A stretch of DNA of 39,087 bases from contig CANHIY010000013.1 in NCBI GenBank assembly GCA_947461175.1, positions 1 to 39,087 of the forward strand. Direction: 5' to 3'. Origin of the DNA: Bacteriovoracaceae bacterium (GTDB taxonomy: Bacteria; Bdellovibrionota; Bacteriovoracia; Bacteriovoracales; Bacteriovoracaceae). A program made the translations under genes and the position numbers. Below, in pieces: positions 6,389 to 39,087 of this stretch. Each line of letters opens with the position of its first letter. Position 1 is the stretch's first letter. Under the pieces are notes generated by a model that searched no databases, had not been told where the DNA came from, and saw only the letters and a list, made by a program, of their open reading frames with translations.

Positions 6389-7033
6389 ATGGATAAAGTT
6401 ACCTTATGTTTTGCTAAAACTCCTGGGCTTACACCGGCAAAAACCAGACTTTCGAAAGAGATTGGAACTCGCCTCACTGAAGAGCTTTATTATCTCTTGA
6501 TTTTAAGATGTCTTGAACTAATGGGGCAACTCATAGATTTTTCTCCTCTTGTTGCCGTCAATGAAGAAGAAGGCTTAAAAAATTTAATTTGGAAAAATTT
6601 CCCTACCTTTCTTCAGGCCAAAGGAGAATTAGGTATTAAACTTTCACATGCGGAGGAGTACTTTTCCAACCTTTATCAGAAAATTTTTTTCTGGGGTACA
6701 GATTCTCCCTCACTGACTGCAGATCATTTCAGGAGCTCAGCCAGACTTTTAGAAACTTGTTCTACAGTCATTATTCCAGCAAAAGATGGAGGATTTATCC
6801 TTTATGCTTCTAACCAAAAGCTGCCTCCACTATCATGGGAATCAATTCAATACAGTACAAATTCTACTCTTAACGATCTTAAAAAATATACTCCCTCTGA
6901 TACAGTCTATTTTTCTGAACTGAGTGACTTAGATACTTATGACGACATTGAACATGTCATCAGAGAAATGAATCAATTCGGATCTCAGGGAGTGGCGTGG
7001 GATAAATTAAAAGATTTTCTTGAAAAACTTTAG
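6389..7033 (+). CDS. DUF2064 / TIGR04282-like transferase (rSAM/selenodomain-associated transferase 1)
   Basis: 'VTLCFAKTPGLTPAKTRLSKEIG', 'FFWGTDSPSLTADHF', 'VIIPAKDGGFILYA', 'LSDLDTYDDIE'; ATG at 6389 gives the canonical N-terminus (track uses 6353). Confidence 0.8.
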   Translation: MDKVTLCFAKTPGLTPAKTRLSKEIGTRLTEELYYLLILRCLELMGQLIDFSPLVAVNEEEGLKNLIWKNFPTFLQAKGELGIKLSHAEEYFSNLYQKIFFWGTDSPSLTADHFRSSARLLETCSTVIIPAKDGGFILYASNQKLPPLSWESIQYSTNSTLNDLKKYTPSDTVYFSELSDLDTYDDIEHVIREMNQFGSQGVAWDKLKDFLEKL

Positions 7034-9159
7034 TTTCTGCGCCAATGGTGAAATCTTTCCACCCACTGAAGGAGACGTTCAGGCTTATGATTTCTCTTCC
7101 AAGTTCCGGCAGTATATTTAATTGCTTCAGAGAATGTAGGATAAGGGTGTATAGTAGACAGGATTTTATTCATACCAATTCCCCACTTCATGGCAAGTAT
7201 AAATTCCCCCAACAGGTCTCCTGCACGGGAACTTACTATGGCCACCCCAAGAATCTTATCACTTCCTTTTTGAGTGATGACTTTGATAAAGCCTTCATTT
7301 TCTCCATCTGCAATCGCGCGATCCAGATCATCTAAGGAGTATTTTATTACCTCATAATTGATATTTTTTTCCAATGCCTCTCTCTCAGATAGTCCTACAC
7401 GTGCGACTTCAGGATCTGTGAAGGTGACAGATGGAACAATTGAGTAATCAACTTTAAATAACTTAAATGGTGAAAATAAAGAGTTGACCGAAGCGTACCA
7501 TGCCTGATGGGCCGCCATATGGGAAAACTGATAGGGGCCAGCACAATCACCACATACATAGACATTTGGAAATTTGGTTCGAAGATATTGATCATGAGAG
7601 AAGGTTCCATGGTCACCTATTTCAAGTTCCAGTTTTTCAATACCTGGAATGTCAGTGTTCGCTCTTCTTCCCTGAGCAATCAAAAGATCATCAAACTCAA
7701 TTTCTTTAATTTCCCCATTATGTTTCAATGACATCCATTTATTTCCATCTCTTACTCCTACTTCAAGCACCTCTGAATCAAGGAGAATCTTCACACCTTC
7801 TGATTTAAATTTTCTTTTTAACTCCAAAGAAATTTCATCATCTTCTTTGGGAAGTAGTGCTTTTTGTAAGGAGACTATTGTAACATCCGCTCCAATCCTT
7901 CTCAATGCTTGTCCAAGCTCACATCCAACAGGGCCCCCTCCAAGAATTAAAAGCCGCTCAGGAAGCTCTTGAAGATTCCAGATAGTTTCAGAAGTTATGT
8001 AGTGAATCTTATCCAATCCGGGAATTAATGGTATGATAGGCTTTGAACCCGAAGCTATCACAATATTTTTTGTGCTTAATATTTTATCGTTAACTTTTAT
8101 CTGCCAGGGACTGAGGATTTCTGCCTCCCCGACATGGCAATCAACTCCCAAGCTGGTATACCTCTCTACAGAATCATGAGGAGAGATGTCTTTAATAACT
8201 CTCTGAACTCTCTCCCTAATATCAGAGTATTTCAATTGAGGAAATGTATCCGAGATTCCAAATTTCGATACAGTTTGAACAGTCTTCATGACTTTCGACA
8301 CTTTAATAAGTGCCTTACTTGGCACACAGCCAGTATTTAGGCATTCTCCTCCCATTTTATCTTTCTCAATTAATGCTACTTTAGATCTTAAAGCAGCTGC
8401 GATATATGAAGTGACAAGACCAGCGGCACCAGCTCCAATAACCAGGACATTATAATCAAACGATTCTGGTTTAGTGAATTTTCTATATATTTTTCTTATT
8501 TTAAAAAACTCAATCATTTTCTTGGCCAATAAAGGAGTTACCCCTAAAAGGATTAAACTACTTAAGAGTGGAAGTGAAATTATCCCTTTTATCGTTTCAA
8601 GAGAAGCAAGCTGAGTACCTGCGTTCACATAAAGAGTAGTTCCAACTAGCATGCCAAGTTGGCTAACGACATAAAAGGTTAGCAAAGGCATATTTGTTAG
8701 ACCCATCAGCATATTAATCAGGAAAAATGGGAAAAGTGGAACTAATCTTAAACTAAATAAGTAAAATGCTCCCTCTTTTTCAATACCACTGTTTAGCGCC
8801 TTCAACTGATTTGAAAATTTACTCTCAACTGTTGCTCTGAAAAAGTAGCGTGTTAGTAAAAAAGCAGAGGTTGCACCAATGCTGCTGGCAAAAGAAACTA
8901 AGAGTACACCTTTAAAAAAACCAAAAATGGCACCAGCTCCCAAAGTCAGGATCGTTGCCCCCGGAAGGGAAAATGCTGTAACAAGAATGTAGATACAAAA
9001 GTAAATGAGAAACATGAAAAAAGGATAACTATGATTAAAACTAAGGAGTTGATGTTGCCTCTGCTTAAGTTCAGCAAATGTTAAGAGATCCAGATATCCA
9101 CTTTTCATCAGGAAAAAAATAACGAAGGCAAGAAAAAATCCCAGAATCATTTTTTTCAT
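7030..9159 (-). CDS. Fusion: N-terminal VTT/TVP38/TMEM64 membrane domain + mercuric-reductase/dihydrolipoamide-dehydrogenase-like flavoprotein
   Basis: N-term 'ATILTLGAGAIFGFFKGVLLVSFASSIGATSAFLLTRY', 'FPFFLINMLMGLT'; C-term 'VLVIGAGAAGLVTSYIAAAL', 'GGECLNTGCVPSKALIK', 'VYVCGDCAGPYQFSHMAAHQAW', 'HPYPTFSEAIKYTAG'. Confidence 0.9.
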   Translation of the reverse strand: MKKMILGFFLAFVIFFLMKSGYLDLLTFAELKQRQHQLLSFNHSYPFFMFLIYFCIYILVTAFSLPGATILTLGAGAIFGFFKGVLLVSFASSIGATSAFLLTRYFFRATVESKFSNQLKALNSGIEKEGAFYLFSLRLVPLFPFFLINMLMGLTNMPLLTFYVVSQLGMLVGTTLYVNAGTQLASLETIKGIISLPLLSSLILLGVTPLLAKKMIEFFKIRKIYRKFTKPESFDYNVLVIGAGAAGLVTSYIAAALRSKVALIEKDKMGGECLNTGCVPSKALIKVSKVMKTVQTVSKFGISDTFPQLKYSDIRERVQRVIKDISPHDSVERYTSLGVDCHVGEAEILSPWQIKVNDKILSTKNIVIASGSKPIIPLIPGLDKIHYITSETIWNLQELPERLLILGGGPVGCELGQALRRIGADVTIVSLQKALLPKEDDEISLELKRKFKSEGVKILLDSEVLEVGVRDGNKWMSLKHNGEIKEIEFDDLLIAQGRRANTDIPGIEKLELEIGDHGTFSHDQYLRTKFPNVYVCGDCAGPYQFSHMAAHQAWYASVNSLFSPFKLFKVDYSIVPSVTFTDPEVARVGLSEREALEKNINYEVIKYSLDDLDRAIADGENEGFIKVITQKGSDKILGVAIVSSRAGDLLGEFILAMKWGIGMNKILSTIHPYPTFSEAIKYTAGTWKRNHKPERLLQWVERFHHWRRN

Positions 9160-34005: not shown

Positions 34006-34683
34006 ATGACACTAAAATCAATTAACCACAAGTTCGCTGAAATTCTCCAAGAGCAACTCTCACCTCAAAACCCCATCAATTTGAGTCTTCATGGACCTCT
34101 CATGTCTACCCTTCACCCAAAGATTATTTGGGCAAAACTTCTGTTTGAAGAAGCTCTTCTGGATAAAATTCCTAAGATCAATTTACCCAACTGGAACTAT
34201 GAGTGCTTCAAAGATCTGACCAATGCAAGTTTCACCTACCCCCAAATTCAGGCCACTTTTGAGGGAACACCATGGGGAGTTTCTAAATTTTTAAATGCTA
34301 TAGAAAATGAGGCGATCATTGATTTTAAAGATTTGGGGACAATTGTTTTAACTAAAAATCCCCTTCAACCTAAAGATCAAAAAAATATTCATGATTATAT
34401 TTTACCCATTTGGGTTGATTACACTCTAAGTGCCGAACTCTGGGGCCCCCTTGGAAAATGGACCCTCTTTCACCAAAGACTCCATAAACTGTTTACTGAA
34501 CTTAATCTTCTTGAGTCAACTGATTCAGTTGGCTATTATCCATTAGACTTGAGAGCTTCAAAACTTAATTCACTGGGATTTCAAGGCACAATTATCAAAA
34601 ACTCTTACGTTCTCGTGTTACCATGGTGTTTTAGTCTAAGCGCTCTGAATAAACTCGAAGAAGTAATAAGGCAGGAGTTCTGA
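34006..34683 (+). CDS. Conserved hypothetical protein, coupled to the AstA-like gene
   Basis: 225 aa ORF with TGA directly abutting the ATG at 34684; no family recognised. Confidence 0.7.
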   Translation: MTLKSINHKFAEILQEQLSPQNPINLSLHGPLMSTLHPKIIWAKLLFEEALLDKIPKINLPNWNYECFKDLTNASFTYPQIQATFEGTPWGVSKFLNAIENEAIIDFKDLGTIVLTKNPLQPKDQKNIHDYILPIWVDYTLSAELWGPLGKWTLFHQRLHKLFTELNLLESTDSVGYYPLDLRASKLNSLGFQGTIIKNSYVLVLPWCFSLSALNKLEEVIRQEF

Positions 34684-36303: not shown

Positions 36304-36380
36304 TGGGAAGTGGCGCAGTTGGTTAGCGCAGCAGACTGTTAATCTGTTGGTCGAGGGTTCGAGTCCCTCCTTCCCAGCCA
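36304..36380 (+). tRNA. tRNA-Asn (anticodon GTT), CCA encoded
   Basis: TGGGAAG acceptor pairs with CTTCCCA-G-CCA; anticodon loop CTGTTAA; GGTTCGAGTCC T-arm. Confidence 0.97.
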
Positions 36381-36466: not shown

Positions 36467-37690
36467 ATGACGTTTTCAAATTCAACATACCTAAAACTAA
36501 AAAACCGCTTAAAAAAAAACTATCAACTTAGACTTACTCAACAATTAAAAAATCTATCATCAGAAAATCTAGCTATTGCCCGGTGGTTAAAGAAAAATGG
36601 GGAAGAATTAAAAACTTTTTCATCCGTAAAATGGAATCTTTTACATCAGATTGAAGAATTTATTTTTTTACATAACAAAAGTAAAAATTTAAATGATGAA
36701 TCTTTTGGCGCTTTAGAGGAAGAGATTTTTGAAAAATGGAACCAAAGTGAATTTGCAGGAGATTTTTTAAAAGCACTTAACCTTGGAAATAAAATAAGGA
36801 AAGCTTCTGAGAAAACATCAAAAATTTTAGACAGACACCTGGTAAATTTTGCCCAAAGACACATCCTTCACCAGAAAAATGTCACACATTTTTATAAAAT
36901 TCAGACATCTCTGGGGGAAATTACTAAAAATGGGGAAATTTCTAATCTCATTCCAAACATCATTCAAATTAATGATAAAAACATTACAGTCTTTTCTAGA
37001 AGTCAAAAAGAAGGAAAAATATTTTGTGAACGGATCTCCAAAGCTTTAAAAATCATCATGGTTTCATCACCAGACTCATGGGAAAGATTCAAAGCATTTA
37101 CTGAAGTCATCGTACCAATCAGAGAATCACACTTCGTGAGTTATTCACATCAGGATTTACCTGGTTACTCTATGATAAATCTTTACCATCGTGATTTTGT
37201 AGACCTCATGGATGATTTATTGCATGAAAATGGTCATCATCACTTAAACTACTACCTCAACTTAAGCCATCTGATAGAAGAACCAATAGAGAGCATTTAT
37301 TATAGCCCCTGGAGGAGGACCTTAAGACCTTTAAGAGGTATTTATCACGCTTACTTTACTTTTTTCTGGGCGTTTAAACTTTTTTCAGATCTTCTCAAGT
37401 CTCAAGAGGCTGATTCGGTTTTTAATTCTTATGAAAAAGAAAAAATGATCTGGCGGGCAGTTGAAGAGTACTACATGCTTAGTTTTACTTTTGAAGATTT
37501 AAAATGGGCAAAAAACAACGGTCTCATTCATAGGAAGGGCTGGGAATTGGTCGCAGAACAAAAGATTCTAATAGATCAAAAAAAGAACGATATTAAAAAA
37601 CTTGAAAAGAAATTGAGTTTCTACAAAGATGATCTTATCAATTTAAAATCAGCTCTAAAAAAAGCCAAAAAAGATTTTAAAAAATGCTAA
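36467..37690 (+). CDS. HExxH-motif protein resembling the aKG-HExxH peptide beta-hydroxylase (TIGR04267-like) family
   Basis: 'DLLHENGHHHLNYYLNLSHLIEEPIESIYYSPWRRTLRPLRGIYHAYFTFFWAFKLF': HExxH, N, E, then YSPWRxxxRPLxGxxHAxxxF. Confidence 0.65.
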   Translation: MTFSNSTYLKLKNRLKKNYQLRLTQQLKNLSSENLAIARWLKKNGEELKTFSSVKWNLLHQIEEFIFLHNKSKNLNDESFGALEEEIFEKWNQSEFAGDFLKALNLGNKIRKASEKTSKILDRHLVNFAQRHILHQKNVTHFYKIQTSLGEITKNGEISNLIPNIIQINDKNITVFSRSQKEGKIFCERISKALKIIMVSSPDSWERFKAFTEVIVPIRESHFVSYSHQDLPGYSMINLYHRDFVDLMDDLLHENGHHHLNYYLNLSHLIEEPIESIYYSPWRRTLRPLRGIYHAYFTFFWAFKLFSDLLKSQEADSVFNSYEKEKMIWRAVEEYYMLSFTFEDLKWAKNNGLIHRKGWELVAEQKILIDQKKNDIKKLEKKLSFYKDDLINLKSALKKAKKDFKKC

Positions 37691-39087
37691 AAATTTAGCT
37701 CTTGTTGCATTTGATTTGCAGGCATAAGATCTCCCTTGCCGGCAGACACTTTAATCCCTTCAGTTAAAATGCTTTTGGCTTCCTCATATAAACCTAAACC
37801 TTTGAGGGCCTTACCTAATGCCAGGTAGGCAACCGAGTATTTTGGATCATGCTCAAGAACTTTTTCTAAGTAAGAACGGGCACTCTCCCACTCACCTTTT
37901 TCTACTGCTATAGAACCAAGACCATAGTTTGCAAGGGTATCATCCGGGTCAATTTCCAATACTTTTATAAACATGGCCTCTCTGTCCGCCCATTCTTTAA
38001 GAAGCTTCTCTCTCTGAAGATTTTCAGACTCTTTTCTTTTCGCTTCATCACCAAAACTTTGGAAGGATTTTATTGTGGCCATTGATTTTTGCTCTTCCGC
38101 TTCCGTAATTTTTCCCATTTTCATGAGGTAAAGAGACATATTCGTATGGGCGAGGACTGACTTGGGATCGACTTCACTTAATAATTTCATGAATTCTATG
38201 GCCTCTTCATAACGATTTTGACGGCCCAACATGACACCGAGGCTCTCGTAAGCATCTGCAAAACTTGGATCAAGCTTAATCGCGAGTTGAAAACACTCCT
38301 CAGCTTCAGCCAATTGGTCCATTTTAAAATAATCACTTCCCTTATAGAAAAGTTCTTTTGCCTTAGAAGTGGCATCACCTTTTATCAGAGGAAAGTACCT
38401 GATATGTCCTGAAAAAGATTTGTCCTGAATGGAAAAATCAATTTTCATTCCCTCAACTCTAAAATCACGCAGAAGACTTGCGGTTAAGTAATAATTTCCG
38501 TCCCATTCGTAAATGCCAAAACTTGTTCCTATTTTCTTTCCAAAAGAAAAAATATCTCCAATTTCTGTCGGTGACTTTAATTCAATAAGTACCGGGTGGT
38601 AGGCAGCACCTCTTCTGGAACTTATTTTAGAGACCGTTTCCTGACCTGGATAACAACCTTTGTTAGGACTGAGGGCAAGATCAAAATGTCTTTGATTATT
38701 AAGAATCTCAAATTTGTAATCTGAACCATCAAAACTAGGCCATCCCGTTAATCCTCTCCAGGTTTCAATGTCTTCAGTGGATAAAAAATCAGTACCAGAA
38801 ACACTGCGAGGTAGGAGAACACAAGGTTCATCAAACATCACACCCTTGAACCCATCTGAAGTAAAAAGAGAAGACTCAGGACCGATGAGGAAAAAATAAT
38901 CACTCGTCCTGGGATCTGAAATTGTCACATCCTCAGAGATAAGAAACTTATGAAGCCTCTTGAGGGAACTCTCCATTAAAAGAGGTGGAATAAGAAGCCT
39001 AAAGTGATGGTTCAACTTTACTAACCACCCATAGAACTCAATTCTTCCCTGGGGGTCGAGAAATGTGGTTAATTGAAAAGTTTTATC
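37687..39087 (-). CDS. YgfZ/GcvT-like (folate-binding, Fe-S-cluster related) domain fused to TPR repeats; N-terminus beyond the window edge
   Basis: 'NKGCYPGQETVSKI' YgfZ signature; C-term TPRs; frame stays open to 39087 upstream of the track TTG start: DKTFQLTTFLDPQGRIEFYGWLVKLNHHFRLL. Confidence 0.88.
   Translation of the reverse strand, partial: DKTFQLTTFLDPQGRIEFYGWLVKLNHHFRLLIPPLLMESSLKRLHKFLISEDVTISDPRTSDYFFLIGPESSLFTSDGFKGVMFDEPCVLLPRSVSGTDFLSTEDIETWRGLTGWPSFDGSDYKFEILNNQRHFDLALSPNKGCYPGQETVSKISSRRGAAYHPVLIELKSPTEIGDIFSFGKKIGTSFGIYEWDGNYYLTASLLRDFRVEGMKIDFSIQDKSFSGHIRYFPLIKGDATSKAKELFYKGSDYFKMDQLAEAEECFQLAIKLDPSFADAYESLGVMLGRQNRYEEAIEFMKLLSEVDPKSVLAHTNMSLYLMKMGKITEAEEQKSMATIKSFQSFGDEAKRKESENLQREKLLKEWADREAMFIKVLEIDPDDTLANYGLGSIAVEKGEWESARSYLEKVLEHDPKYSVAYLALGKALKGLGLYEEAKSILTEGIKVSAGKGDLMPANQMQQELNF

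Follow-up and report, generated by a model that had tools for sequence, protein, structure and literature searches.

A Stand-Alone aKG-HExxH-Type Hydroxylase Homologue at a Conserved tRNA-Asn Locus of the Bacteriovoracaceae

Introduction

The characterised peptide beta-hydroxylases of the alpha-ketoglutarate (aKG)-HExxH type use Fe(II) and aKG to hydroxylate Asp, His, Gln, Asn, Pro and other residues in peptides (PMC12636437, PMC13060819), and those described in the cited literature act in the biosynthesis of ribosomally synthesized and post-translationally modified peptides (RiPPs), on RiPP precursors (PMC12636437, PMC13060819, PMC12707348). Here, we describe a homologue of these enzymes encoded in a window of 39,087 nucleotides from a Bacteriovoracaceae bacterium (assembly GCA_947461175.1, contig CANHIY010000013.1, positions 1 to 39,087). 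Its place in the aKG-HExxH family is real and well supported, but its setting, a core genome locus that lacks RiPP genes, is unlike that of the characterised members in these papers. We consider it probable that the protein is a catalytically competent Fe(II)/aKG hydroxylase that has been recruited as a stand-alone enzyme of the Bacteriovoracaceae core genome, rather than one that tailors RiPPs.

One of the closest known systems is the HExxH domain of ChlH (ChlBH; PDB 8s5f), which has the HExxH, SPWR and LRP..G..HA motifs of our protein and resembles it in fold over about 400 columns. ChlH is fused to a radical SAM domain, whereas the gene described here stands alone, and the two are 15-17% identical. 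SjiH (PDB 22ob and 22nu), the best match by structure, has HExxH, PWR and LRP..G in common with our protein and has no His equivalent to its H294; its PDB label is radical SAM core domain-containing protein. PflC/PosC and PesO are free-standing RiPP enzymes of the same family, likened here via the literature alone (PMC12636437, PMC13060819); unlike our gene, theirs are clustered with a precursor, an MNIO and a transporter. As for role, the YcfD/RoxA-type ribosomal oxygenases carry out the stand-alone, 2-oxoglutarate (2OG)-dependent hydroxylation of a cellular protein that we propose here (PMC4295552, PMC5862935). Their JmjC cupin fold, however, has no relation to that of the HExxH enzymes, and the analogy is one of role only. 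A literature search for a link between Bacteriovorax and 2OG hydroxylases found no paper.

Family Assignment, Fold and Active Site

The 407-aa protein matches the TIGR04267 hidden Markov model (aKG-HExxH peptide beta-hydroxylase; IPR026337) with 59.6 bits (cut-off 40; 3.6e-16), and a search of the whole assembly indicates that its open reading frame (ORF) is the only gene of its kind, in a single copy. In a sequence search of the PDB, the significant relatives are only ChlH (8s5f; 2.6e-7 with the query alone and 2.6e-12 with a family profile) and SjiH (22nu/22ob), while in a Pfam search no family covers the protein and no peptidase family matches it. The AlphaFold model (mean pLDDT 92.4, pTM 0.88) is predicted to have a zincin-like oxygenase fold that aligns over nearly the whole chain, about 400 columns, with SjiH (22ob, 1.4e-6) and ChlH (8s5f, 1.7e-6), the best Foldseek matches (prob 1.00). 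Overall, the TM-score reaches only about 0.5, and therefore the orientation of domains or other details differ.

A preliminary description, made from the letters of the stretch alone, had placed the protein in this family, and both the score above the cut-off and the fold match bear this out. It had also described an N-terminal extension of about 200 aa, which does not hold up. TIGR04267 has 177 positions and models the catalytic half alone, which is why the rest appears to be an extension. However, residues 222-309 align with ChlH 220-310, so that HExxH is about equally far from the N-terminus in both proteins; this spacing and the extent of the Foldseek alignment place the N-terminal half within the ordinary family fold and rule out a special domain. 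The Lys-rich C-terminus is predicted to form ordered helices.

The catalytic motifs are HENGH (253-257), SPWR (280-283) and RPLRG..H (287-294). The HExxH motif and the downstream PWR..LRP..G are invariant in the homologues and common to ChlH and SjiH; the residues identical in all three proteins are V224, S225, L247, L251, H253, E254, H257, L260, P281, W282, R283, L286, R287, P288 and G291. Among the 28 intact homologues examined, H253, E254, H257, SPWR, R287, R290, G291 and H294 are identical in all, and P288 is Thr in the homologues of genus g51. An alignment of 29 sequences has 45 invariant columns, the RP..RG..H segment among them. From these patterns R283 and R287 may bind aKG.

Distribution and Inheritance

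The gene is present in 24 of 25 genomes of the same genus, at 46-57% identity, and the relatives are, by record titles and taxonomy, Bacteriovoracaceae. In the 95 genomes of the family there are 55 with an intact long form, three with a dead form (genus g43) and 37 without the gene; the copy in genome G119 is interrupted by undetermined bases. Outside the family, a search of 291 genomes of the phylum turned up only short or weak TIGR04267-like proteins. Within the Bacteriovoracaceae inheritance of the gene is vertical, at a single conserved locus. On a tree of four neighbouring genes, the states present, dead and absent need eight changes, at least four of which are forced by well-supported branches. 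In genomes without the enzyme a small gene, tRNA-Asn and a YgfZ-TPR gene (see below) are often directly adjacent to each other (L172, L176, L177, L181, L183 and L186). Our reading is that the gene is ancestral and was lost several times with its neighbours left in place, the count of changes being unable by itself to separate gain from loss.

Short TIGR04267-like paralogues of about 280-305 aa occur in Bdellovibrionota (L213, L216, L220, L221 and L225). As judged by reading the sequences, they are repeatedly found beside a solute-binding protein resembling the peptide-binding OppA, and in place of RiPP genes their further neighbours are of the sensor/response-regulator and MFS-like kinds.

A Dead Homologue in Genus g43

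The homologues in the three g43 genomes (L168, L179 and L182) are syntenic, and at 476-478 aa they have Q..AL in place of HENGH and have lost SPWR and RP.RG..H. TIGR04267 does not match them; however, a structure model, its fold guided by homologues in the alignment, finds SjiH (2.5e-6) and ChlH. Two g43 species are 62% identical, with pN 0.222 and pS 0.757 at saturated synonymous sites, which indicates that purifying selection acts on a protein without catalysis. YgfZ-TPR was not detected in the three g43 genomes.

Locus Architecture and Expression

The features of the locus are listed in Table 1. The gene order is nearly constant in the relatives: an SH3/TPR gene, AstA (often with AstC/AstD-like genes), the divergent small gene, tRNA-Asn, the hydroxylase, the convergent YgfZ-TPR gene, an ErpA/IscA-like gene, FHA, cobalamin adenosyltransferase and an IcmF-like mutase, most of these names being assigned by reading the sequences. 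The stop codons of the enzyme and YgfZ-TPR genes overlap at 37687-37690. The preliminary description had correctly noted tRNA-Asn and the YgfZ-TPR gene next to it and the lack of RiPP genes nearby, and the comparison with relatives extends both points. In about 34 loci, surveyed by clustering and reading with only some of the neighbours run against Pfam, there is no conserved radical SAM, YcaO, MNIO, protease or precursor gene. An adjacent precursor is excluded by the lack of ORF space, there being 86 nt to the upstream tRNA and overlapping stops at the convergent 3' end. Thus, instead of a cluster with precursor and maturation genes, the enzyme has a conserved housekeeping neighbourhood.

Table 1. 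Features of the hydroxylase locus and of the dead homologues in genus g43.
Feature	Position	Strand	Remarks
aKG-HExxH-type hydroxylase homologue	36467..37690	+	407 aa, ATG start; ORF, HMM, profile and AlphaFold/Foldseek evidence
Codons of HExxH metal motif (H253 E254 N255 G256 H257)	37223..37237	+	Position from ORF start; invariant in intact homologues; common to ChlH and SjiH
Codons of S280-PWR-RTLRPLRGIYH-H294	37304..37348	+	R283 and R287 are candidate aKG contacts
tRNA-Asn(GTT)	36304..36380	+	Upstream of enzyme gene, same strand
Divergent small gene, 170 aa	35709..36221	-	Conserved C-terminus G[VIL]L[VI][ND]K[KR]; substrate candidate tested, no specific support
YgfZ-TPR fusion gene, convergent	37687..39087	-	Cut by window end; partner candidate tested, association not specific
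Dead homologue, genus g43	L168:8016-9443	+	Syntenic, full length
Dead homologue, genus g43	L179:8288-9721	+	Syntenic, full length

The tRNA-Asn(GTT) gene adjoins the locus in 26 of 26 loci scanned, including those without the enzyme. In about 20 loci, for example L044, L048, L050, L051, L054-L058 and L060, the first ATG of the enzyme follows the CCA of the tRNA by 5-10 nt (GCCA, then CTTTTTATG), which leaves no room for a Shine-Dalgarno sequence in between. A motif of that kind is found upstream of one of 20 hydroxylase starts versus 161 of 290 other conserved genes, a rough measure that takes the starts of the longest ORFs. The 86-nt spacer in the window itself has no terminator-like or promoter-like signal. 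The simplest reading of the arrangement is a tRNA-mRNA dicistron, and the enzyme probably shares the transcription unit of tRNA-Asn.

Proposed Function and Alternative Explanations

For this enzyme we infer the metal, the cosubstrate, the hydroxylation and the protein nature of the substrate. After expression from the tRNA-Asn unit, the enzyme would bind part of a cellular protein, or of a peptide whose gene lies at another place, and with aKG, O2 and Fe(II) held by H253 and H257 it would hydroxylate one residue at its beta-carbon. Vertical inheritance of the gene as part of the core genome and the absence of RiPP genes make a cellular protein or a distally encoded peptide the likeliest substrate. 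The preliminary description had suggested a "housekeeping or distal" substrate, and inheritance at a single locus and the scarcity of MNIO genes strengthen this suggestion; "housekeeping", however, is too strong a word, as the gene is dispensable, being absent or broken in 40 of the 95 family genomes, and dead yet retained in one genus.

Some points weigh against a hydroxylase. PflC can also hydrolyse peptides (PMC12636437), and therefore a conserved motif is not in itself proof of hydroxylation. H294 could be the third ligand of the iron, but the corresponding residue is His in ChlH and Gln in SjiH. Co-occurrence over the 95 family genomes gave no specific partner and hence no substrate, and the retained g43 pseudoenzyme indicates that a role without catalysis is possible for the protein.

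That the enzyme tailors a RiPP, with the genes for the precursor and the partner enzymes lying at other places in the genome, would agree with what the cited papers report for the family, and 24 of the 26 genus genomes indeed have a YcaO gene away from the locus. However, these YcaO genes are mostly single-copy and long (open frames of about 580-750 aa), and judged by length only, their products resemble the E. coli type. The source genome has no MNIO, which is present in only two of the 26 genus genomes, radical-SAM and lanthipeptide systems not having been searched. Together with a single vertical locus that lacks tailoring genes across the family, this makes RiPP tailoring unlikely. A zincin-type metalloprotease that cleaves peptides would also have an HExxH motif, and PflC hydrolyses truncated peptides with several metals (PMC12636437). 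Against it, there is no Pfam peptidase match, the fold and the SPWR/LRP motif match the aKG-HExxH oxygenases specifically and the RP..RG..H segment is invariant; snake-venom and ADAM proteases appear in the Foldseek search only at E>0.6. Membership of the zincin metallopeptidases was thus rejected, and proteolysis as the main activity is improbable.

The product of the divergent small gene, hydroxylated on the Asn or Asp of G[VIL]L[VI][ND]K, is an attractive substrate candidate, since the gene adjoins the enzyme in nearly all enzyme-bearing loci and encodes a short helix-like N-terminus, a variable, disorder-like middle and a strongly conserved C-terminus, in which nearly every sequence has Asn or Asp as the fifth residue of the motif. 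It is present in 76 of the 95 family genomes and has no family match. However, the motif persists where the enzyme has been lost (L162, L165, L172, L176, L177, L181, L183 and L186) and in the dead-enzyme genus (L168 and L179), while genus g51 (G078, G110, G120 and G128) has the enzyme and no small gene was detected there. Because the motif outlives the enzyme, there is no specific support for this candidate, and we doubt it strongly. The protein might instead act mainly by binding, as a scaffold or adaptor, with catalysis secondary; the 478-aa g43 homologue, which belongs to the same fold family, has no catalytic residue and is still constrained, speaks for this. But the catalytic residues are intact in every other homologue examined, which implies strong selection on chemistry, and we consider a mainly binding role very improbable.

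YgfZ-TPR was considered as a specific partner. It is present in 53 of 55 enzyme genomes versus 24 of 40 others (p=8.8e-6), and AstA, a control from the same locus, gives 53 of 55 versus 25 of 40 (p=2.5e-5), both from raw counts that ignore kinship. Because AstA shows the same signal, the association is an effect of locus and clade, and there is no specific support for YgfZ-TPR as a partner.

Returning to hydroxylation, a fuller account, in which a dedicated non-RiPP aKG-HExxH protein hydroxylase is translated without a Shine-Dalgarno sequence from a tRNA-Asn/mRNA dicistron and has given rise in g43 to a derived pseudoenzyme that keeps the binding function, is put forward only tentatively. Such a hydroxylase might have the translation apparatus or an oxygen-sensing step as its target. 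If true, the account would give the aKG-HExxH family its first function outside RiPP biosynthesis. From a clade that is single-copy, vertically inherited and free of RiPP genes and that has an intact active site, a new protein hydroxylation is predicted across the family, predatory bacteria included. Natural comparisons come from the pseudoenzyme lineage, the tRNA-Asn linkage and the losses that recurred at an otherwise intact locus, and with them the substrate should be findable by proteomics.

Other Genes in the Window

Upstream of astA, positions 34006-34683 (+) encode a 225-aa protein with no Pfam or NCBIfam match, which occurs in some members of the family only; in others its place is taken by an aminotransferase-like (AstC-like) gene. 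Farther away, the 709-aa ORF at 7030-9159 (-) reads as a membrane TVP38/DedA-like domain joined to an NAD(P)/FAD disulfide oxidoreductase.
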